From positions 1 to 64,000 of the forward strand of contig CASICI010000025.1 of NCBI GenBank assembly GCA_949373145.1: DNA of 64,000 nucleotides, read 5' to 3'. This document shows positions 20,503-45,326 of the stretch, in pieces. Source of the stretch: an uncultured Phycisphaerales bacterium. GTDB taxonomy: Bacteria > Planctomycetota > Phycisphaerae > Phycisphaerales > SM1A02. Below the pieces are notes generated by a model. That model saw nothing but the letters and a program-made list of their open reading frames with translations, was not told the origin of the DNA and ran no database searches. Made by a program: the position numbers and the translations under genes. Position 1 is the stretch's first letter. Each line of letters opens with the position of its first letter.

Positions 20503-21874
20503 ATGATTCGTTCACCAAGAACTGCTGTGTCCCGACGACGAACGCTCATCGGAAGCGTCCGGATCTGGGCACCTCTTGTCGTGGGTGTGGCCCTTGTCGG
20601 ATGTTCGGTGGCACGGAATGAGAGTCGTTCCACGAGAGACCAGGCTGGCCCCGCGGTTTCCCTGGAGGCGCAGAGCGATGGCAGCACTGCGGCCAGACCC
20701 ATGTCCACCGCTCGCGCCTCGGCTCCCGAAGGCACGAATTCGGGTCAGGCGCAAACCAGAGCCGAGGTTCCACCCACCTCACGGCCACGGCTGGCTCCCA
20801 CGCGACCACCCGAACCTGCATCGGCCCAGGCGTCCACGACACCCTTGCCCAAGCGTGTGCTCACGCCAACTCAGCCACCGAAAGTCGAGGCATTCCAGGA
20901 TCAGTCGAGCGAAGCCGATGTGCTCCAACTCGGGCCGCGGCAGGAGGCGATCTCGATTCTTCGCGCGGCAAGTCGTTCCGAATGGCCGCAGTTTCGAGCC
21001 AATGCACTTGAAGCTCTGACCAGTGACGTTCAACTCCTGCGCGGTGAGATCGTCACCGGGTTGCTCGATGAGAATCGCGGCGTTCGATTCGTGGCACTGA
21101 TGGCGCTCTACAAGGCGCAGCTCTGGGAGCTCGCTCCACTCGTCAAGCCTCTGCTCGACGACTCGTCCGACTCCGTGCGTGCGGCGGCGCTGCTGGTGCT
21201 TCATGCCTCCGGCGCATCGATCGACCCGACACCGCTTGCCGCGATGGCCACATCGGGTGATCCCGAGATCCGAGCCAATGCCTACGTGGTCCTCGGGCTC
21301 ATGGGCAACAAGAGCGCAGTGGGTCTGATTCGTGAGTCACTTGGTGATTCACTCGGACTTGTGGCTCAGGATCGAATCCGAATCGTCGATCTCCAAGGCC
21401 GCCGCCGCACTGGTACGCCTGGGTGATGCTCAGGAGATCGAACCACTGCGGGCGGCACTCTTCGCGCCCGTCGAGCAATCCGAGCTGACAGCCCTGGCGA
21501 TTCAGGCGTTGATCCAACTTCAGGACAAAGGCAGCACCGGCATGCTGGTTCGATTGGTCGAGGCATCCGGAGACCAGCAACGCCCACCGGAGATCAGGCT
21601 GTTCGCGGCTTCGGCACTGGCGCGTCTGGGCATGCGGGAACCGGCTCCGTTGCTCCGGCTGGCATCGGAGTATCTGGCCTTCGATGATCCTCTGGTCCGG
21701 GCGCAGGTGGCCATATTGCTTGGCGATGTCGCCGATCCCACCGCGCTCAGAGAGCTCTCATCGATGATGCGAGATCCCAGTCCGATCGTCCAATTGGCTG
21801 CCGCAGGGGGGGTGCTCAAGTTGGTACCGCCCGCTCGCGAGGCTCTGAAAACACCATCCGATCAGGCGCCTTGA
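20503..21874 (+). CDS. HEAT-repeat lipoprotein (one frameshift)
   Basis: The N-terminus is basic and then hydrophobic with the lipobox 'VALVGC', so the mature protein should be a lipoprotein. A Pro/Ala/Thr-rich linker of about 110 residues follows, then HEAT-type repeats ('DSSDSVRAAALLVLHASG', 'SGDPEIRANAYVVLGLMG', 'FDDPLVRAQVAILLGDVADPTALREL'), which usually mediate protein contacts. The repeat region is split between two frames: the first ends in 'RRRTGTPG' at 21426, and the second continues from 'ISKAAAALVRLGDAQ' to 21874. A single extra base near 21360-21400 explains this. GGAGGTG six bases before the ATG at 20503 sets the start. It lies directly downstream of lnt. No specific partner can be named. 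Confidence 0.78.
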
Positions 21875-22136
21875 ACGTAAAATCGTCTTGAATCTGAATC
21901 CCATGACCCACCTTGATTGAACTGAACCGGGGTTTTGGGTACAAACTACGAAGTCATTCACCCTCAAGGGACGGAGGATTCGTCCCGGTGCATGCACTAT
22001 TCCGTCGGCGCGACGGAAGACATGGATTCGTCGCCGCACCAACCCTCATCGGCCTCGAAGGGCGAATGCTCGGACCGTGAGCACGCACCTGACATGGACC
22101 AAACGGCTTGCAAATGAACACAGAACGGAAGACACA

Positions 22137-23036
22137 GTGAACGTCGTCACCAAGATCTTCATCGTCCTCGTCGCCCTGCTCGCAGTCCTCCTGGTCCCCT
22201 TGGTAGCGGTCAACGCCACCAACGCCACGACCCTTCGCAAGCGAATTCTGACCATGCAGTCGGAAGTGACCGCTGCGGAAGCCAGCATGACTGCCCAGGC
22301 CGTCGCTCGCCAGAACGCCGAAGGCGTTCTGATGATGCGCAACCGTGAACTGCAGCAGCAGATCATGGAAATCGAACAAGGACGAACTTCCGACCAGCGC
22401 ATGATGGCTCAGATGGAAGGCCAGCTCGCCGGCCGCAACGAAGTCCTCGCAAGCCTCCAGGCTTCGATCGACGTCTTCGCTCAGACCGACCGTTCGAAGG
22501 CCGATCTCACCAGCGCGCTCGTCGGTGAACTTCGCGACATTCGTGTTCGCGCACTCGCCTCGGAACGTCAGGCCAACCAGCTCGACCAGACACTCAGTGA
22601 AATCAAGAACCAGCTCGACGTGGCCGACGCCGCTCGACGCAAGCTTCAGGAAGAAGTGGTCCGACTCACCGATCAGAAGGATCAGGCTCTTGGAACCGTC
22701 TCCCGCTACGTGGCCTATGTCGGGGATCTTCCCGAAGCACGCGCCGGCGCCACCGGTACCAGTGCTCGAGTGCCCGCCGACCGAAACCTGAGCGCCACCG
22801 TGATCGCGGTTCGTCGCTCATCCGACGGTTCGCTCGCCGAAATCAACGCTGGCAGCCGTGACGGTGTCGGTGACGGCTGGGTCATGGCGATCACCGACGG
22901 CAGCCGTTTCGTCGGCAACCTGCGCATCATCGAGACCGACGTCAACCGGGCCACCGGTGTGATCGAGCTCGAGGACAAGCAGGCACGTGGTGAAGTCAAG
23001 CCCGGAATGAGCGCCATCGCCCGCAAGGGTGAGTGA
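22137..23036 (+). CDS. Membrane-anchored coiled-coil protein upstream of mreB
   Basis: From a GTG at 22137 (CGGAAG upstream) the protein has 299 residues. One membrane helix ('IFIVLVALLAVLLVPLVAV') is followed by a long predicted coiled coil (about 25-215, 'SEVTAAEASMTAQAVARQNAEG...LDVADAARRKLQEEVVRLTDQ') and a C-terminal domain of about 85 residues ('LSATVIAVRRSSDGSLAEINAGSRDGVGDGW...GEVKPGMSAIARKG'). The C-terminal part loosely recalls the beta domains of MreC ('NIGSRHGVSGGTVAVV' in the mreC below), suggesting a periplasmic structural protein. I do not know a named family. Its place before the mreBCD genes suggests a role in envelope structure or shape. Confidence 0.75.
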   Translation: MNVVTKIFIVLVALLAVLLVPLVAVNATNATTLRKRILTMQSEVTAAEASMTAQAVARQNAEGVLMMRNRELQQQIMEIEQGRTSDQRMMAQMEGQLAGRNEVLASLQASIDVFAQTDRSKADLTSALVGELRDIRVRALASERQANQLDQTLSEIKNQLDVADAARRKLQEEVVRLTDQKDQALGTVSRYVAYVGDLPEARAGATGTSARVPADRNLSATVIAVRRSSDGSLAEINAGSRDGVGDGWVMAITDGSRFVGNLRIIETDVNRATGVIELEDKQARGEVKPGMSAIARKGE

Positions 23037-23159
23037 GATCCGAAGTCGGCTTCGGTCGCCATTCGGTCATCAAGGAACACTGGCATCCGTTCGGATGCAT
23101 TGAGAGGTACAGACGTATGAATCAGACAATGGGTACAACCGCCGTCGAGGGCATCCGGG

Positions 23160-23321
23160 ATGGATGTCTATACCGGCCTTCTGGTTGCCGCCTTCGTGGT
23201 CCTCCTGGCAGGCTTCCTCTGGGTCGCCGCCGCCAACATGGAACTGGCAGACGGCGAACGGGGCTCGGGCGGCATGCTCGACTCCATCCCCGGGTTCAAG
23301 GCCGTCCAGCAGGATTCCTGA
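23160..23321 (+). CDS. Small single-helix membrane protein (53 aa)
   Basis: An ORF below the track's size limit encodes 'MDVYTGLLVAAFVVLLAGFLWVAAANMELADG...', with one membrane helix at residues 5-26 and a short hydrophilic tail ending 'KAVQQDS'. GAGGG lies about nine bases upstream of the ATG. It directly follows the coiled-coil membrane protein gene and is closed by a good terminator, which supports a real gene. A second ATG at 23117 ('MNQTMGTTAVEGIR', with GAGAGG upstream) would be in frame only if one base were removed, so a slightly longer frameshifted form is possible. Function unknown. Confidence 0.55.
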   Translation: MDVYTGLLVAAFVVLLAGFLWVAAANMELADGERGSGGMLDSIPGFKAVQQDS

Positions 23322-23353
23322 GCCCCGCGCAGCTTACGCACGATATGTCCACG

Positions 23354-23388
23354 ACCCGGCGGTTTCCCTGTGGGAGCCGCCGGGTTTT
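23354..23388 (+). terminator. Rho-independent terminator before mreB
   Basis: CCCGGCGGTTTCCC pairs with GGGAGCCGCCGGG (one bulge) and is followed by TTTT. It closes the unit with the coiled-coil and small membrane protein genes and separates it from mreB. Confidence 0.8.
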
Positions 23389-23478
23389 GGTACGTTGATC
23401 TGTCGCTTGATACGGAACAACGCATGACGTTCACCTTCTCGCCCTTAAGTGGACGGGGCAGGTGGGTTGGAGACTACC

Positions 23479-24541
23479 GTGATTCTTGATGCCATTTTAG
23501 GTTGGTTCAGTGTCGACATGGGTATCGATCTGGGCACCTGCAACACGCTCGTCTGTGTTCGCGGCGAAGGAATCGTCCTCAACGAGCCATCCGTGGTCGC
23601 CGTGCGCAAGGGAACCAACAAGGTCATTCGAAACGGCACCGCCGTCGGTTGGGCCGCCAAGGAGATGCTCGGCAAGACGCCCGGGGCGATCTCGGCAATT
23701 CGTCCGCTCAAGGATGGTGTGATCAGCGACTTTGAAATCACCGAAGCGATGCTCAGCTACTTCATCCGCAAGGTGAACGGGAAGTCCCGAATCATGCGAC
23801 CCCGTGTCGTCATCGCGATTCCCTCGGGGATCACCGCGGTCGAGAAAGCGCGCCGTGCTCGACTCCGCGGAGACTGCGCGGGAGCACGCCGGGTCTACCT
23901 GGTCGAGGAGCCCATGGCCGCAGGCATCGGTGCCGGACTTCCGATCGTCGAACCCACCGCCAGCATGATCGTCGACATCGGCGGAGGCACCACCGAAGTG
24001 GCCATCATGTCGCTCGGTGACATCGCCACCTGCGAGAGCGCACGCGTCGCCGGTGACGACTTCGACGAGGCCATCATCAACTACATGAAGAAGAACTACT
24101 CCCTGACCATCGGGGAGCAGACCGCCGAGCGCATCAAGATCGAGATCGGCTCCGCCGCCGAACTCGAGGAGGAGAAGCGCCTGGAAGTCCGCGGCCGCGA
24201 CATGGTCTCCGGCATGCCGCGCAAGACCGTGGTCACCAGCGAGGAGATCCGAGAAGCCCTCAGCGAGCCGATCGACGCCATCATCGAGACCGTGATGAAG
24301 ACGCTCGAACAGGCCAAGCCCGAACTCGCCGGCGACCTCGTCGACAACGGCATCACCCTCGCCGGCGGCGGTGCGCCTTGCTGCGAGGGATGGACACCGT
24401 CCTGCTCGCCAAGGCCACCGGGACTCGACGTTCGTCTGGCCGAGGACCCGCTCACCTGTGTCGCGCGAGGCACCAGCATCTACCTTGGAGAACCTCGAGG
24501 ACCTCAAATCGACCCTCGAGTCGGACATCGACGAACTCTGA
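23479..24541 (+). CDS. mreB: Rod shape-determining protein MreB (frameshifted near 3' end)
   Basis: MreB is the bacterial actin that guides cell-wall synthesis. From a GTG at 23479 (TTGGAGA upstream) the sequence reads 'ILGWFSVDMGIDLGTCNTLVCVRGEGIVLNEPSVVA', then 'PRVVIAIPSGITAVEKARR', 'YLVEEPMAAGIGAGLPI', 'MIVDIGGGTTEVAIMSLG' and 'GEQTAERIKIEIGSA', all classic. Near 24375 the frame breaks after 'NGITLAGGGA'; 'LLRGMDTVLLAKATG' is in a second frame, 'LDVRLAEDPLTCVARGTSIYL' is back in the first, and 'ENLEDLKSTLESDIDEL-stop' is in a third. Three small indels within about 110 bases restore a normal 353-residue MreB ending at 24541. The track ORF running to 24801 is an artefact of these breaks. 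Confidence 0.93.
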
Positions 24542-24612
24542 CTCCGCCAGCCCACCGAGGTCGTTCGTCTCCACGCGGATGGCGAGGGCCTGAGAACCAC
24601 GGTGGAACCCGG

Positions 24613-33858: not shown

Positions 33859-33905
33859 TGCCGATTCCTGATCTGGTCTTTCAAACTGGGTTTTGATCTC
33901 GGTGT

Positions 33906-35073
33906 CTAGGTGGAACGTTTCGTTTGCTTGCGAAAGCTTCGAATCTTCTTTCGAGCCAAATCCTCGAGCTTCAACTTCATCATGAGTGCCTTGGTGACAA
34001 TGCCAAGTCGGTAGACGCACATCATGTAGTGATAGAAGGGATTGAAGAGTGCTCTCTTCGTCCGAAGCTGTCGTTGTTGCGCCATCACCATCTTGGAACA
34101 GAGCCTCGACTTGTAGTCAGCTTTTCCGATTCCGAAATCGAAAGTCTCCTGCTGCCCGGTCTCGATGTATCGTCTGATCGTTTCGTAGAGAAGAATCGTT
34201 CCCAGAGGATATTTGCAGAATGTCGGGTTGAACCCCATCTGCGTCCCAAAGCGCTGGTCCTTGATGACGGCATTGTTGAGGAATGCCAGAGGCTGCCCAT
34301 CGATGAAAAGGATCGAGATCTCAAGGTTGCCCTGGGCGGCAAGGCCTTTGTAGAACGCATTCATTCTGGGGTTGTTCTGGACGTTGACGCCCAAGTCCGG
34401 CGTGGTAGGAATGTGAATCGATCTCCTCGCATATCGTCAGCGCTTCATTGATTTCTTCGCTCTTGGAAAACAGGGTGATCTCGAAGCGATTCTCGTAGAT
34501 CCGATTGAATCGGTTGAGGTTGTGTCTCAAAGTGCTTCTGGTGCTTTTTCCAAGTAACAGCATCTGTTTATCGAAATCTTCGGCGATCTCCATTTTCCAG
34601 TGTTCCTCTGCCCTGAAAAATGCTTTTTGGTAACTCGCGAGCGATGACGTCCTCAAGGCCTCGAGAAGTGGATCATCCTCGTCGATGTGGGGAAGCTCGA
34701 TGATGTCGACCTTCTCCTTCTGAATCGCTTTGGTGGTCAGGTCGAGCAATGCTGCGACATTTTCGACCGCTTGTCTTCCGCAAATCCCCCCCTGCGGAAT
34801 GGTCAACTTCCTGACTTTGGCTCTGGGAAGTGGAAGGTAGGCATCGCGACCGATGTACTGCCGTTCTATTCGTGCACTGAACATGCAGGCGATCCGGCCC
34901 TCATCATCGACAAGAATCGGAATGAACGGCTTCTTGATGTCCGGGTCACTCTCGCACAGCCGCAGAACGACGGCCGGATGTGCTCCCGGGTGCGTGGCGA
35001 CAGCTTTCCACTCGTCCAGATGGGGAGTGATCTCTTCATCAGTCGACAGAATTTTGAAATGAAGTTTCGTCAT
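33906..35073 (-). CDS. FemAB/CelD-like GNAT acyltransferase (one frameshift)
   Basis: Two minus-strand ORFs (34321-35073 and 33906-34394) form one protein of about 388 residues. The N-terminal half has 'MFSARIERQYIGRDAYLPLPRAKVRKLTIPQGGICG' and 'WKMEIAEDFDKQMLLLGKSTRSTLRHNLNRF'. The C-terminal half has the GNAT-like 'LEISILFIDGQPLAFLNNAVIKDQRFGTQMGFNPTFCKYPLGTILLYETIRR' and 'FDFGIGKADYKSRLC'. This is the layout of the CelD/BcsL and FemAB-like acetyltransferases acting on polysaccharides or peptidoglycan. The break lies near 34400, where 'HSYHAGLG' should continue to 'VNVQNNPRMNAFYKGLA'; one extra base explains it. The substrate is unknown. It lies between two sulfotransferase genes. Confidence 0.75.
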
Positions 35074-39356: not shown

Positions 39357-39935
39357 TCAGCCCATGTAGGCGGGGGCCTGTCCCGGTGCCCATTTGATGC
39401 CACAGCCAAGGGCTGGTTTCTGATCTGCAGGGATCGGTTCACCTGCAGCCAGTGCATCGAGTGCCGCTCGAAGATCTTTTCCATCGACCGGGATATCCGT
39501 CTTGGGTCGACTGTCATCCAGCTGACCTCGATAGACCAGCGCCTTGCTCGAATCGAAGAGGAAGAAGTCCGGGGTGCAGGCGGCGGTGTAGGCCTTCGCC
39601 ACCGACTGGTCCGCGTCGAAGAGGTAGGGGAAGGTCCAGCCGTTGGCTGCCGCGGTCTCCGCCATCTTGTCGGGAGCATCGTCCGGATAGTTCTCGATGT
39701 CGTTGCTCATGATGCCGACCATGCCGATTCCCAGTGCGCTGCAATCCCTGCCAAGCTTCGTGAGTTCATCGTAGATGTGCTTCACGTAGGGACAGTGGTT
39801 GCACATGAAGACGACCAGCAGTCCGTGTCGGCCTTCGCACTCGCTCAGTTCATGGGTGCGTCCATCGGCGGCCTGGAGGGTGAACTCCGGAGCGATGGTC
39901 CCGAGTGGAAGCATGGTTGAATTGGCAGGTGGCAT
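39357..39935 (-). CDS. Thioredoxin-fold peroxiredoxin-like protein (AhpC/TSA type)
   Basis: From the ATG at 39935 (CGGAG upstream) the protein has 192 residues. It matches the redoxin/AhpC-TSA group: 'LGTIAPEFTLQAADGRTHELSE', the active site 'LLVVFMCNHCPYVKHIYDELTKLG' with a CxxC pair, 'VGIMSNDIENYPDDAP' and the cis-Pro region 'ACTPDFFLFDSSKALVYRGQLDDSRP'. It is cytoplasmic, with no signal peptide. Its probable role is a thiol-dependent redox reaction; such proteins are common in planctomycetes and their substrate is not known. The track start at 40133 overlaps the divergent zinc-ribbon gene and is rejected. Confidence 0.87.
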   Translation of the reverse strand: MPPANSTMLPLGTIAPEFTLQAADGRTHELSECEGRHGLLVVFMCNHCPYVKHIYDELTKLGRDCSALGIGMVGIMSNDIENYPDDAPDKMAETAAANGWTFPYLFDADQSVAKAYTAACTPDFFLFDSSKALVYRGQLDDSRPKTDIPVDGKDLRAALDALAAGEPIPADQKPALGCGIKWAPGQAPAYMG

Positions 39936-39996
39936 GATGTTTCTCCGTTCTGATGACGAACGGCTCGACATGAGCACGTTTCGACTTGAGGGTGAG

Positions 39997-40002
39997 TATA
40001 GT
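39997..40002 (+). promoter_or_regulatory. -10 box (TATAGT) six bases before a start codon
   Basis: TATAGT-CGGGCC-ATG gives the same leaderless geometry as at 4076 and 29769, and there is no Shine-Dalgarno before the ATG at 40009. It helps choose this ATG over the in-frame ATG at 39970. Confidence 0.5.
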
Positions 40003-40008
40003 CGGGCC

Positions 40009-40281
40009 ATGCCCAGACGATTTGAACAGAATGAAGGTCCCAGCGAGGATGACATCCAGCGTTTCGGTGGCGCGGATTCGTCTCTGGGATTCTGTCCCGA
40101 ATGTGGGGCGGAGATCTCCGATCTCGCCGACATCTGCCCTTCATGTCACAGCTGGATCCCAGAGGGAGCCCAGCGACGCCATCCGCTGACCAGCGACATG
40201 ATGAGACGTTGGTATGCCTTCATCGGCATCGTGGTCCTGGGGGTCTTTCTGTATCTCTGGCTCTTTCGTGGTGCGGGCTGA
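40009..40281 (+). CDS. Small zinc-ribbon membrane protein
   Basis: The 90-residue protein has a zinc ribbon ('GFCPECGAEISDLADICPSCHSWIP', two CxxC knuckles) followed by one C-terminal membrane helix ('WYAFIGIVVLGVFLYLWLF'). The ribbon would face the cytoplasm if the helix is a tail anchor. No function is known; similar small proteins are widespread. I choose the ATG at 40009 because TATAGT lies six bases upstream and earlier in-frame codons run antisense into the neighbouring gene. It is convergent with the metal uptake operon. Confidence 0.72.
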   Translation: MPRRFEQNEGPSEDDIQRFGGADSSLGFCPECGAEISDLADICPSCHSWIPEGAQRRHPLTSDMMRRWYAFIGIVVLGVFLYLWLFRGAG

Positions 40282-40304
40282 ACCGCCGGGTCGGGACACG
40301 GAGT

Positions 40305-41624
40305 TCATTCCGGGATCCTGCGGCCATGCGGGTCGGTGGTCGGCGTACCGGTCTCTCTCGCCAGCTGTTCGAGCATCTCCTCATCGGTGACATGCTCGAG
40401 TCTCATTGCAGTCTCATGGACGTGGTCCGGCGCAAGACCGGCGCTCTTGGCGAGCCATGCTTCCCAGAGTCTGTGCGATCGGACCAGAGTGGCTGCGCGT
40501 CGTCGACCTGCATCGGTCAGCGTGATCAGGTCTTCTCGTCTCATGAAGTCACCCTGACTCAGCAGGTGTCGAAGGCTCCATGCGATTTCGAATCTCGAGA
40601 CCCGGCGAGCAGTCGTCAGATCGTGGGTGAGCACTCGAGCCGAGCTCTGGCCGCCACGTTCCTCCAGGCGCCAGGCGAGCGCAAGCAGATCCTCCGTCGT
40701 CGTTTGAAAACGAAAACGCCAGCGTCGGACGCTTCTGGGCACCACGCCATGGGTTGGATTGATGAGGATGCCAACGAAGAGCAGGCAACCACCGGTGACG
40801 GCGATCATGCCTGAAGTCGGGACCGATCCGTACCCGATGAGATGGGGAAGTTCGACCGCTCCAAGGTGCCCCAGGACCGCGGACGTCAGCCCCAGGAATG
40901 ACGCAAGCCACAGCATGCTGGTCAGGTTCGTCGCGAAGAGGCGTGCACAGACCGCCGGAACGATGATCATCGCGACCACGATGATGCTGCCGACCGCCTC
41001 GAATGATGCCACCGTGGTCACCGCCGTCATGCCCATCAAGAGGTGGTGCATGAGATCCGGGCGCATCCCCTGTGCCCGCGCCTGTTCCGGATCGAATGCC
41101 GCGATTCGAAACGCCTTGAACCAGACGATCAGAATGAACAGATCGATCAGAAGCACGATCGCCACCATCAGGAACGCTCGGGGCAACTGCACGCCGCCCA
41201 GCAGAGGAAGCGTGACGAGGTCGAGTGGTGCGAATTCAAGAGCACCGTACAGAACGCAACTGGGATCAAGGTCCACGGAGTCCGCGCCTTGGACGATCAG
41301 CAGAAGCCCCACCGCGAAGAGGGTTGTGAAGACCACGCCCATCGCGGCGCCTTCATCCACGCGTCCGAAACGTTTCAGCCACTGGGAGAAGAATGCGGTG
41401 AGGAACCCTGCGACGATCGCTCCCGCGAACATGATTCCATTCGATCGAGAGCCTGTGAGAAGAAAGCCGATGGCAATGCCGGGGAGGACCGCATGGCTGA
41501 TGGCATCGCCCATGAGACTCATGCGTCGAAGCACCAGGAAACAACCCGGCAGGGCACAGGCCACCGCGCAGGTCGCCGCGATGACGATGATCCAGCCATC
41601 GAAGAAGAGGCTCCATTGCGTCAT
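40305..41624 (-). CDS. Manganese/zinc ABC transporter permease with C-terminal DtxR-like domain (second permease)
   Basis: From the ATG at 41624 this is a 439-residue protein. The N-terminal 290 residues are an ABC-3 family metal permease with about eight helices ('LPGCFLVLRRMSLMGDAISHAVLPGIAIGFLL', 'FEAVGSIIVVAMIIVPAVCARLFA'). The C-terminal 150 residues resemble a DtxR/MntR regulator: winged helix ('RFEIAWSLRHLLSQGDFMRREDLITLTDAGRRRAATLVRSHRLWEAWL') and metal-binding dimerisation helices ('DHVHETAMRLEHVTDEEMLEQLA') ending 'DPHGRRIPE'. The cytoplasmic domain may sense metal and gate transport; this is inference. The track joins it in frame to the preceding permease, but a TGATG stop/start overlap suggests two coupled genes. 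Confidence 0.82.
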   Translation of the reverse strand: MTQWSLFFDGWIIVIAATCAVACALPGCFLVLRRMSLMGDAISHAVLPGIAIGFLLTGSRSNGIMFAGAIVAGFLTAFFSQWLKRFGRVDEGAAMGVVFTTLFAVGLLLIVQGADSVDLDPSCVLYGALEFAPLDLVTLPLLGGVQLPRAFLMVAIVLLIDLFILIVWFKAFRIAAFDPEQARAQGMRPDLMHHLLMGMTAVTTVASFEAVGSIIVVAMIIVPAVCARLFATNLTSMLWLASFLGLTSAVLGHLGAVELPHLIGYGSVPTSGMIAVTGGCLLFVGILINPTHGVVPRSVRRWRFRFQTTTEDLLALAWRLEERGGQSSARVLTHDLTTARRVSRFEIAWSLRHLLSQGDFMRREDLITLTDAGRRRAATLVRSHRLWEAWLAKSAGLAPDHVHETAMRLEHVTDEEMLEQLARETGTPTTDPHGRRIPE

Positions 41625-42992
41625 CACCGTCGTTCTCCCCGTTCGAGGGCGGACAGGCAGGATGATCGGGTGCGGGCTTGGAGGTATCGAACCCCGTTCG
41701 GTGTTCAATTCCTTTTCCAGTTCATCGAGCAGCTCGAGTGGAAGCAGGTGCTCGAGATCGTCGGCCCCACGGTCGACATGGTCTTCGTCGAAATCAGCCC
41801 GGCGCAGCAGATAGTGTTCCCAGAGTCGGTGGCGCCGCACGACTTCGACCGCGCGTCTTTCACCCGTGGGTGACAGACGTATCTCGGTCTCGGAAACGGT
41901 CTGGATGATCGTGAGCAGTCCTGCACGGTGAAGGCGTTGGCAGGTGTTCGAGTTCGCCCATCCTCCGCGTGCGGTGATCTCGGATTTGTGGCAGAAGTCC
42001 GAGCCGGAATGTTCGAGGCTTTCCCAGATCGCTCGAAGAGCATGTTCACGTTCCATGGATCGTGAACGCCGTCTCAGACGGAGCGCACGACGAAGCAACC
42101 CGCGTTGTCGGCCGAAGACGAGGCTCAAGAGAAAGAAGCCACCAAGTCCCAGGACCACCATCGCTCCGGCGGGCAGATCCGGGGCGAGTGCGCTTGAAAG
42201 GGTGCCGGCCCAGCCGCCAAGCCCGCCGATGACGCCTGCCGTGAGGAGCAGGTGGCCGGTCCTGTTGGTCCAGAATCTCGCGGCTGCCGGTGGGATCACG
42301 AGAACCGCGATCACGAGCACGAGACCGACCGCCTGGAGACCCACCACGACGACTGCGATCACCCATCGCCATGAGCAGCAGATCGTAGGCTCCGGTCTTC
42401 ATCCCTCGCCCACGAGCGTAGTTCTGATCGAAGCAGATCAGTCTCAACTCCTTGAAGAAGACGATGCATGTCGTGATCGTGAGCACCGAAGTGACGGGCC
42501 GATCATCATGGCGTCACGCACCAGCATGGACGCGGTCTTTCCGTAGATGAACGTCTCCAGTCCAGCCGCACTCGCGGTGGTCTCCTGTTGTGCCAGTCCG
42601 AGAAGCGCGGCACCCGCCCCGAAGAAGCGTGCTCAAGACCACGCCGAGTGCGGAGGTCCTCTGGAAAGTCTTCCTGAACTCGTCAACCAGTGGACAGCGA
42701 TGATTCCAATGATGCCCGAGCACGTCGCGCCGATCAGCAACACGCCATGGGATTTCACACCGAAGCCCATCGCCGATGCCACAAGAAAGGCAAGCACGAT
42801 TCCGGGCAGGGTGGCGTGGCTGAGTGCGTCGCCAAGAAGCGCACGGCGTCTCAGGAGCATGAACGAACCCACGACTCCACCGGCCATTCCCAGAGCGCTG
42901 ACACCGAGAACCACCACGCGGGTATTCCAGTTGGAGAGAAACAACAGATCAAGGAATGTCGTTTCAGTCGCGGGCATGAGCGCGCTCATCAT
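41624..42992 (-). CDS. Manganese/zinc ABC transporter permease with C-terminal DtxR-like domain (first permease, frameshifted)
   Basis: The N-terminus ('WNTRVVVLGVSALGMAGGVVGSFMLLRRRALLGDALSHATLPGIVLAFL') is in the ORF at 42633-42992. Repairing indels near 42660, 42632, 42498 and 42366 gives the continuous 'STFFGAGAALLGLAQQETTASAAGLETFIYGKTASMLVRDAMMIG' and 'VLTITTCIVFFKELRLICFDQNYARGRGMKTGAYDLLLMAMVIAVVVVGLQAVG'. The start of the track ORF 40305-42362 then carries the last helices and a DtxR-like winged helix with dimerisation helices. No stop is visible before the second permease; a TGA overlapping its ATG is one frame away, so a fifth indel near 41640 is likely. It overlaps the ATPase gene by four bases. 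Confidence 0.75.
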
Positions 42993-43804
42993 CGACCGAC
43001 CCCTCGTGCGTGCCCGGCAAGAGCCTTTGATGCATGGTCCAGCAGAGTGAGGGTTCCACCGTAGGTCGCTTCGATGTTCTCAGGCGTGAAGACGTCTTCG
43101 GTGGGTCCGAATGCCACCACACGTGTGTTCAGAAGCAGGACATGATCGAAATATTCGGACACCGTCTGAAGGTCATGGTGCACCACCACCGTGGTGCGTC
43201 CTCGAGTCTGCAAGGTTCGAAGAAGAGTGACGATGGTCTGTTCAGTCGAGGCATCGACACCCGCGAATGGCTCATCCATGAGATGAAGATCAGCCTCTTG
43301 AACGAGAGCTCTGGCGAGAAAGGCGCGTTGTTGCTGACCGCCGGAAAGTTGCGAGATCTGGCGCCCGGCGAATTCCGCGAGTCCGACTTCCTCGAGTGCG
43401 TTGAGTGCCTGTCGTTTGATTCTTCGGTTGACCGGCCGAAGCATGCCGAGGGTGTGATAGAGCCCCATGCAGACCACGTCCAGAACGCTCACCGGAAAAT
43501 CCCAGTCGATCGATTCGCGTTGTGGAACATAGGCGACACGTTCACGTTGAACCGCGTAGGGGCGACCGAACATCTGGACATGACCACTCAATCTGGGGAC
43601 GAGATCGAGTGCGGCCTTGATCAAGGTGCTTTTTCCAGCTCCGTTGGGGCCGATCACACCGACCAACGAACCGGGAGGAATGTCGATGTCGATGTCCCAC
43701 AACACGGGGCGACGCTCGTATGCGACCGTCATCGCATGAATCGAGAGTGGGGCGTCCGGTGAGTGCTCGGCTCGAGTTTCTGCGGGGATCTCTTTTTTAC
43801 TCAT
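42989..43804 (-). CDS. Manganese/zinc ABC transporter ATP-binding protein
   Basis: The 271-residue ATPase has Walker A 'GVIGPNGAGKSTLIKAAL', Q-loop 'YVPQRESIDWDFPVSVLDVV', the signature 'LSGGQQQRAFLARAL', Walker B 'LHLMDEPFAGVD' and the switch His in 'VVVHHDLQTV'. The Q-loop stretch 'QRESIDWDFPVSV' is characteristic of the manganese/zinc/iron uptake (MntA/SitB/TroB) branch. It overlaps the binding protein stop and the permease start by ATGA-type overlaps, so translation is coupled through the operon. A basic N-terminal extension precedes the ABC domain. It is intact, unlike its neighbours on both sides. Confidence 0.92.
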   Translation of the reverse strand: MSKKEIPAETRAEHSPDAPLSIHAMTVAYERRPVLWDIDIDIPPGSLVGVIGPNGAGKSTLIKAALDLVPRLSGHVQMFGRPYAVQRERVAYVPQRESIDWDFPVSVLDVVCMGLYHTLGMLRPVNRRIKRQALNALEEVGLAEFAGRQISQLSGGQQQRAFLARALVQEADLHLMDEPFAGVDASTEQTIVTLLRTLQTRGRTTVVVHHDLQTVSEYFDHVLLLNTRVVAFGPTEDVFTPENIEATYGGTLTLLDHASKALAGHARGVGR

Positions 43805-44810
43805 CTGGGTTCCATGCTCTCCGTCGCGTCTTCAGAATCGAGACCTCCCCCGAGGCCCCTGGTGACGGTTTCGATGTCATGCATCATCATGCCGACCCAT
43901 GTGCCCTCGGCAGTGCCTTTCGGGCCCATCGAATCACTGAACAGTTCACCTCCGATGACGACATCGTGCCCTTTCGCCGCGGCACCCTCGATCAAGGCTT
44001 CGATGCTCCGGCGGGGCACGCTCGACTCGATGAAGACGGCTGGGACGTTGCGTTCGACGACCAGCGTCACCAAGGCCTCGAGGTCGGCCAGGCCGGCCTC
44101 GCTTTCAGTCGTGATCCCCTGAATGGCCTGGACCTCGATGTCGAATGCCGCCCAAAATAGCTGAAGGCATCATGACTGGTGATCAGGACTCTGGATTCGT
44201 TCGGAATCGAGGCGATCGACCTTCGACCGAAGCGTTCGAGTTCACCGCACTGCTCGAGCAGTCTTTCGTGATTTGATTTGAACATCAGTCCGTCACGCTC
44301 CCTCAGACTCGTGAGTCCCTTCAGGACCGCATTCGAGCATGCCCCCAGAGTCGGGGTGAAAGCCAGAGATGAGGGTCCGGGTGTTCGCCGGTGCCGTCCG
44401 GGTAGAGCAGTTCATCTGAGGGAATGGTCTCTGCGATGGCGATCGAGGGTCGATCGGTGCCTGCTCGTTCCAGAACTTCACCCATCCTGCCTTCCAGATG
44501 ATGGCCATTGAAGAAGATGATCTGGGCCGCGAGAAGGGCGGCGATGTCATCACGTGTGGGTTTGTACAAGTGGGGGTCCACTCCGACCCCGATCAGGCTG
44601 TGAACGCGCACGGCGTCACCTCCGATGCTGCGTACGAGGTCCGCGATCATTCCCGTCGTCGTGACGACTTGGATCGGTCGGCTCCCCTCGTCCGCTCGGG
44701 ATCCTGCTCGGTCTGTTCACTCGGATCCTCCACAGCTCATGCAAGCAGAGCGCCAGCAGGATCAGGAGTGGTGGCAGCGCAACGCAGGCGTGTCTTTTCT
44801 TCCAGGGCAT
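43801..44810 (-). CDS. Metal ABC transporter substrate-binding protein (frameshifted)
   Basis: Pieces in several frames form one cluster A-I metal-binding protein (ZnuA/MntC/TroA family). The start is 'MPWKKRHACVALPPLLILLAL', an export signal. 'VVTTTGMIADLVRSIGGDAVRVHSLIGVGVDPHLYKPTRDD' supplies the first metal His, 'IIFFNGHHLEGRMGEVL' the second and 'VLITSHDAFSYFGR' the third. 'GIQGITTESEAGLADLEALVTLVVERNVPAVFIESSVPRRS' and 'GTWVGMMMHDIETVTRGL' supply the C-lobe acid residue. Frame breaks fall near 44750, 44675, 44345 and 44160, with all ligands preserved. The repaired protein is about 336 residues. 'SHDAFSYFGR' and 'GI(Q/S)TESEAG' favour manganese/iron over zinc but do not decide it. Confidence 0.82.
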
Positions 44811-44811
44811 G

Positions 44812-45244
44812 TCATCGTTTCCTGATCGTACAGAAGTGTTTCATCGCTTTGAGTGTGGGGGGTGAACAGTGGTGTTCGATTCCCTCGGAATCGGCATTCG
44901 CCGTGCCTTTCGGGAACGCCGAGTTCGATGAGAAATCTCAGCACGATTTCATGTCGTGCTTTCGCCGTCTGGGCGAGTGCTTTTCCCGCCTCAGTCAGTT
45001 CGATCGGTTGATAGGGGCTGGTCGTCACCAGGTCGCGCCCGACCAAACGAGCAACGGTTCTGTTGGCCGTCACGTGTGAGACGCCAAGTCGTCTGGCAAG
45101 TCTGGTGACTCTGCAGGAACCCTCTTCGGCGTGCAGTTCCGCAATGGCTTCCACATAGTCTTCAGCGATTTCGTTCGAGTGGTCTGCGCGCGTCTTGCGA
45201 AAGACGTCCGCCTGTTGGTGAGGCGTTCTCTTTTTTGTAGCCAT
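44812..45244 (-). CDS. mntR: DtxR/MntR family metal-dependent repressor (one frameshift)
   Basis: The N-terminal part resembles E. coli-type MntR: 'TRADHSNEIAEDYVEAIAELHAEEGSCRVTRLARRLGVSHVTANRTVARLVGRDLVTTSPYQPIELTEAGKALAQTAKARHEIVLRFLIELGVP'. Dropping one base near 44920 converts the odd tail of the track ORF into 'KGTANADSEGIEHHCSPPTLKAMKHF', the metal-binding 'D-x-EGxEHHxS' motif, and ends the gene at 44812, two bases from the binding-protein ATG. With manganese bound it should repress the uptake genes that follow it. Two palindromes flank its -10 box, one including its own start codon, so autoregulation is likely. Repaired length is about 143 residues. Confidence 0.85.
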
Positions 45245-45251
45245 GGCTACA
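45236..45251 (-). promoter_or_regulatory. Palindromic operator overlapping the mntR start codon
   Basis: TGTAGCCATGGCTACA is a perfect 16-bp palindrome that contains the ATG of mntR. Its relative at 45257-45272 lies 21 bp away centre to centre, two helical turns. Both are likely binding sites for the MntR-type repressor. Confidence 0.65.
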
Positions 45252-45256
45252 TATTA
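45251..45256 (-). promoter_or_regulatory. Candidate -10 box (TAATAT) of the metal uptake operon
   Basis: On the minus strand TAATAT-GTAGCC-ATG shows the window's recurring -10/N6/ATG geometry. The box lies exactly between the two palindromic operators, so a bound repressor would cover it. Confidence 0.5.
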
Positions 45257-45272
45257 TGTAGTCTTGGCTACA
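45257..45272 (-). promoter_or_regulatory. Second palindromic operator upstream of mntR
   Basis: On the minus strand TGTAGCCAAGACTACA is a near-palindrome with the same TGTAG...CTACA arms as the perfect site at 45236. It falls in the -10/-35 spacer. Confidence 0.6.
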
Positions 45273-45289
45273 AGTCAAGGTTCGTCATG

Positions 45290-45326
45290 AAAAAAAACCG
45301 GCAGCCGTCTGGACGCCGGCTGCCGG
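45290..45326 (-). terminator. Rho-independent terminator of the sigma factor gene
   Basis: On the minus strand CCGGCAGCCG and CGGCTGCCGG pair around a nine-base loop and are followed by eight T. It lies 71 bases after the sigma factor stop and just before the metal operon promoter. Confidence 0.85.

Follow-up and report, generated by a model that had tools for sequence, protein, structure and literature searches.

Two palindromes flank the −10 box of a metal-uptake operon in a 64,000-nucleotide stretch of DNA from an uncultured Phycisphaerales bacterium (contig CASICI010000025.1; the whole stretch analyzed is referred to here as the window), raising the question of which protein, if any, reads them and what would follow from its binding. 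The operon is of the mntR-mntABCD type, serving manganese uptake, in a Phycisphaerae-like planctomycete. We suggest, with a probability of roughly 85%, that the palindromes are paired operators of an E. coli-type manganese sensor, MntR, which would control mntR-mntABCD by manganese-dependent closure and leaderless reopening. Our searches of the open-licence literature turned up no described MntR site in Planctomycetota; the motif defined below would supply this phylum with an operator definition for manganese control that is statistically strong.

The mntR promoter and its paired palindromes

On the minus strand, the promoter reads in the order TTGACT - TGTAGCCAAGACTACA - TAATAT - GTAGCC-ATG-GCTACA. 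Operator 1 (TGTAGCCAAGACTACA, 45257..45272) fills the entire 16-bp spacer between the −35 box (TTGACT, 45273..45278) and the −10 box (TAATAT, 45251..45256). The final base of the −10 box is shared with operator 2 (TGTAGCCATGGCTACA, 45236..45251), a perfect palindrome that holds the mntR ATG (45244-45242), which opens a minus-strand ORF at 44762..45244, together with the predicted transcription start at 45244, the A of that ATG. The first-pass annotation had described two palindromes with a TAATAT −10 box between them, one palindrome being perfect and containing the start codon, and each of these elements was found in place; its idea that a DtxR/MntR-type repressor has a site covering both promoter and start codon of the operon that encodes it is supported, the site being a putative one. 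A promoter scan of a 301-bp stretch returned a single promoter-like site, TTGACT-16-TAATAT (mean in shuffles, 0.1). The geometry is the same in the nearest relative, G151, in which the boxes are TTGACA and TATGAT, a perfect TGTAGCCATGGCTACA occupies the position of operator 1, and operator 2 is identical. Further upstream, a stem-loop followed by a T-run (45290..45326, minus strand), read from the sequence and resembling an intrinsic terminator, ends an upstream sigma-factor gene and isolates the mntR promoter. This stem-loop is also present in G151 and is kept in the alignment of the two sequences; it is absent from the output of the promoter scan covering the 301-bp stretch.

A leaderless mntR mRNA is predicted because, in the window as in G151, the A of the ATG is the seventh base past the −10 box, and this is the natural reading of the geometry. 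An operator can hold the start codon because such a message would begin at the ATG. In the window, the mntR frame offers no start codon other than this ATG, there being an in-frame stop 12 nt further up, and no Shine-Dalgarno sequence can be recognized before the gene. Planctomycetes are reported to have few genes with Shine-Dalgarno sequences, and base biases that suggest leaderless or S1-dependent initiation (PMC5397173). If the message is leaderless, operator, promoter and start codon fit into about 43 bp.

The paired layout is not general. An ATG inside operator 2 at the predicted +1 was confirmed only in the window genome and G151; at other loci, in-frame candidate starts within the sites are for the most part alternatives to better-placed starts further downstream. 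Even within the genus, spacing and start-codon overlap are variable, the pair being 16 and 19 bp apart in G150 and G152 and followed there by GGAG-type leader sequences. About 15-20 other relatives have a single operator in a 16-18-bp spacer, with the GCTACA end providing the TACA of a TACAAT-like −10 box. The earlier proposal of a 21-bp centre distance, placing both sites on the same face of the helix, is true in the window; however, close pairs occur at 16, 17, 19, 20, 21 and 22 bp, and same-face binding can therefore not be a general requirement, so that this spacing was discarded as a rule. The common theme is a putative operator embedded in the core promoter; the paired form covering the start codon elaborates on it locally.

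All genes of the operon lie on the minus strand. The mntR gene (44821..45244), encoding an E. coli-type MntR, is in frame to about 44912; near 44905 it carries a one-base frameshift and runs on in two frames to about 44821. It is followed by a gene for an mntA/znuA-type substrate-binding protein (43801..44810), likewise frameshifted in the window, an ABC ATPase gene of the metal transporter (42989..43804), and two ABC-3 permease genes (40305..42992), of which the first is disturbed by indels near 42660-42360. Both permease genes have in-frame DtxR-like C-terminal parts that match Fe_dep_repr_C. The combination of a permease with a DtxR-like tail recalls Chlamydia YtgC-YtgR and is widespread among the family genomes. 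Genes that are open in G151 and split by frameshifts in the window lie at 40300-45250, about 21400-24600, 33900-35000 and 39400-40300, and outside the operon at least four more genes in the window are broken relative to G151. These frameshifts are as likely to be draft errors as real decay; their scatter favours draft errors without proving it. Tight autoregulation, as first proposed, would require an intact MntR in the window's own genome, where the mntR copy is frameshifted.

Conservation and distribution of the motif

Of 181 genomes from the family, 95 have an orthologue of the DNA-binding half of MntR at strong E-values, and such orthologues also occur in named Planctomycetota and Verrucomicrobia records. 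In the 300 bp upstream of the MntR match, the motif with at most two mismatches is present at 72 of 105 loci, compared with 5 of 503 control stretches of equal length taken downstream. At some of the loci outside these 72, a site is found beyond mntR, immediately ahead of the transporter genes. Lack of conservation upstream of orthologous mntR genes had been named beforehand as the outcome that would overturn the idea; the motif is conserved there, and the idea survived. The comparison also refined the motif to TGTAGC-N4-GCTACA with a free 4-bp centre, correcting the half-site TGTAG-CC given originally: the conserved half-site is TGTAGC. In a profile anchored on one half only, with the partner half then scored, the partner reads G87 C88 T95 A95 C95 A76 (percent), and the centre is loosely A/T-rich.

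The suggestion of a lineage-specific operator proved too narrow. The motif occurs in the window's family and order and in some Pirellula/Rubripirellula and Verrucomicrobia records. Across the phylum sample, it is found alongside MntR in further families of that order and in some beyond it. It is thus wider than one lineage, yet not universal: in f31 (L170-L181), another planctomycete family, most of the MntR-bearing genomes sampled lack the motif in the 3.4-kb stretch examined. The recognition helix of the f31 proteins is the same as in motif-bearing genomes despite the absence of the motif in most of them.

Among the 75 perfect sites listed by a scan of the 181 genomes, 67 are no more than 1 kb from mntR. 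Of the remaining eight, five, from four genomes (G061, G081, G085 twice, and G086), are directly upstream of a ZnuA-ATPase-permease operon. One further site, in G092, is at the end of contig C174 and probably belongs to an mntR at the start of another contig; the remaining two lie elsewhere in G092. One of these two, inside a gene, is probably a chance match. The other is a perfect TGTAGCTAATGCTACA at L153:2155-2170, between mgtE and an MgtC-family gene, whose candidate ATG it holds; it is a possible extra MntR target. In the 2.1 Mb of the window's genome that was searched, nothing pointed convincingly to a wider regulon, the remaining matches having two mismatches and being fewer than those of a reversed control pattern. 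Regulation by MntR seems to be local, covering its own locus and the transporter.

The protein likely to read the motif

The closest solved relative is E. coli MntR (2H09). The intact orthologue in G151, 76-78% identical to the window protein, reaches 166 bits with the MntR equivalog model NF008273 (NCBIfam), above its cutoff of 153. The binuclear manganese site has six ligands, D E H E E H, and 104/104 orthologues keep every one of them, as does E. coli; in the window MntR, the last three fall beyond the frameshift. These ligands are at positions 8, 11, 77, 99, 102 and 103 in B. subtilis numbering, for which a B. subtilis MntR sequence with Met at position 8 was used for column position only.

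The palindromes might involve no DNA-binding protein at all, being chance or RNA-level elements such as a start-codon hairpin. A lone perfect 16-bp palindrome is common in the window (6 found versus 1.3 expected) and is weak evidence. A matched pair is not weak. For the pattern searched, TGTAGNCNNGNCTACA, 0.6 matches with at most two mismatches are expected per window; both sites match it with 0 mismatches, and there are no further zero-mismatch matches in 2.1 Mb of the window's genome. Near-identical imperfect palindrome pairs 16-30 bp apart numbered 0 in 100 Markov-shuffled windows; the real window has one other near-identical palindrome pair, which is GATC-rich. Moreover, the conserved motif differs in distance and orientation from locus to locus, occurs also between mntR and the transporter genes, and lies in the promoter spacer, where transcription would miss it. 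Conservation across the family led us to reject chance as the origin of the palindromes, and we consider an explanation by chance or by RNA scarcely credible.

Given a DNA-binding protein, the genome offers candidates other than MntR, because both permeases have C-terminal DtxR-like parts. These could bind the palindromes after release as a repressor, as in Chlamydia YtgCR, YtgR being reportedly a permease-fused iron repressor. An operator of the YtgR type would accompany the fused permease regardless of MntR. Instead, the perfect site is present in 1 of 36 family genomes that have the permease without MntR, as opposed to 46 of 67 that have both. Likewise, in genus g7 the DtxR-tailed permease is found in 13/13 genomes, whereas MntR is found only in G032 and G034, and the site only in those two. 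In genus g5, MntR and the site coincide fully, both being present in the same seven genomes and in no others. Over the whole family, the perfect site occurs in 63 of 95 genomes with MntR versus 2 of 86 without it (Fisher p=6e-22); both of the latter are incomplete genomes, and the absence of a perfect site from 32 of the 95 is due in part to imperfect sites. Sites thus track MntR rather than permease tails. We consider binding by the tails improbable and MntR the likely reader of the motif. A different possibility is that MntR does bind but senses or controls zinc or iron, with the transporter being a zinc importer. The substrate-binding protein and the permeases show similarity to zinc families and manganese families alike (AztC/AztB, EfaA, MntC), and none of them reaches the curated cutoff for any of these. 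The regulator, by contrast, passes the MntR equivalog cutoff with every manganese ligand kept, and we judge a zinc or iron sensor to be unlikely, if deserving of some weight. The reading that we prefer remains MntR acting as a manganese sensor.

The MntR-less genomes of genera g5, g7, g34 and g35 have a longer DtxR-like protein (about 220-290 aa, a weak match) and lack the motif; in these genera the regulator has apparently been replaced.

Relation to known MntR boxes and proposed control

Comparison with boxes read from the E. coli K-12 genome sequence indicates where the motif may belong. E. coli mntS has two MntR sites overlapping its promoter (PMC11275975), TATAGCACAGGCTATA and TATAGCTATTGCTAAA, which are 19 bp apart. 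These boxes (TATAGC-acag-GCTATA and TATAGC-tatt-GCTAAA) flank a TATAAT −10 box and have the core TAGC-N4-GCTA found here. They differ from the planctomycete pair in the spacing (19 versus 21 bp), in having A:T rather than G:C at ±7, in driving a small protein rather than mntR and a transporter, and in not containing a start codon. The E. coli mntH box, ACATAGCCTTTGCTATGT, likewise has the core and the 4-bp centre, but is single, has ACA/TGT flanks arranged otherwise, and has A:T at ±7. The inverted TAGC-N4-GCTA core of the proteobacterial MntR box is thus present in the window, with one mismatch (ACTA) in operator 1, whereas the proteobacterial A:T at ±7 is replaced by G:C in about 95% of partner halves. 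The half-site had been called unlike known MntR sites; this is right for the flank at ±7 and wrong for the core, which is that of mntH and mntS. We conclude that the motif is probably a variant of the proteobacterial MntR box with G:C for A:T at ±7.

The MntR of B. subtilis belongs to the same regulator superfamily and has the same metal site. Where there is one operator, it overlaps the promoter; tandem 18-bp sites separated by 1 bp show cooperative binding; and in the protein-DNA structure the thymine methyl at −7 is contacted by Pro36 in the recognition helix (PMC11275975). The half-site of its operators (mntA, mntH, mneP) is different from the one described here, and the T:A at ±7 read by Pro36 is absent here. 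In the orthologues, the recognition helix reads S/T-H-V-T, position 36 being His in 104/104 and position 37 Val in 103/104; in E. coli MntR, these positions are Gln-Pro. The likely reader of the motif is a recognition helix that has His-Val in the place where the B. subtilis and E. coli proteins have a proline. That the proline and the T:A at ±7 have both been lost suggests a change in specificity, the link between helix and operator being a correlation between groups. A helix residue and a base pair that change together would be a natural pair for understanding how MntR/DtxR proteins read DNA. An evolutionary scenario that we regard as evenly balanced is that planctomycetes and some relatives lost the helix proline in favour of His-Val while ±7 of the operator went from A:T to G:C, and that one sub-lineage moved a paired operator onto the start codon of a leaderless mntR, covering −10, +1 and ATG.

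Under the manganese-sensor reading, we suggest that MntR dimers would occupy both operators when Mn(II) is plentiful. With operator 1 between the −35 and −10 boxes and operator 2 extending from the −10 box over +1 and the ATG, RNA polymerase would be excluded and repressor and importer would both be turned down. When manganese is scarce, MntR would leave, the operon would open, and a leaderless mRNA would start at the ATG. Autoregulated repressors expressed from a leaderless message with an operator at the promoter are known from lambda cI, transcribed from PRM, and from tetR of Tn1721. The likeness lies in the leaderless autoregulation; the repressors and operators are unrelated.

Open frames 309-345 aa long in three genomes (G320:C52:85992-86795, G363:C36 and G501:C32) each hold two MntR-like matches in tandem, as if two repressor units had been fused.
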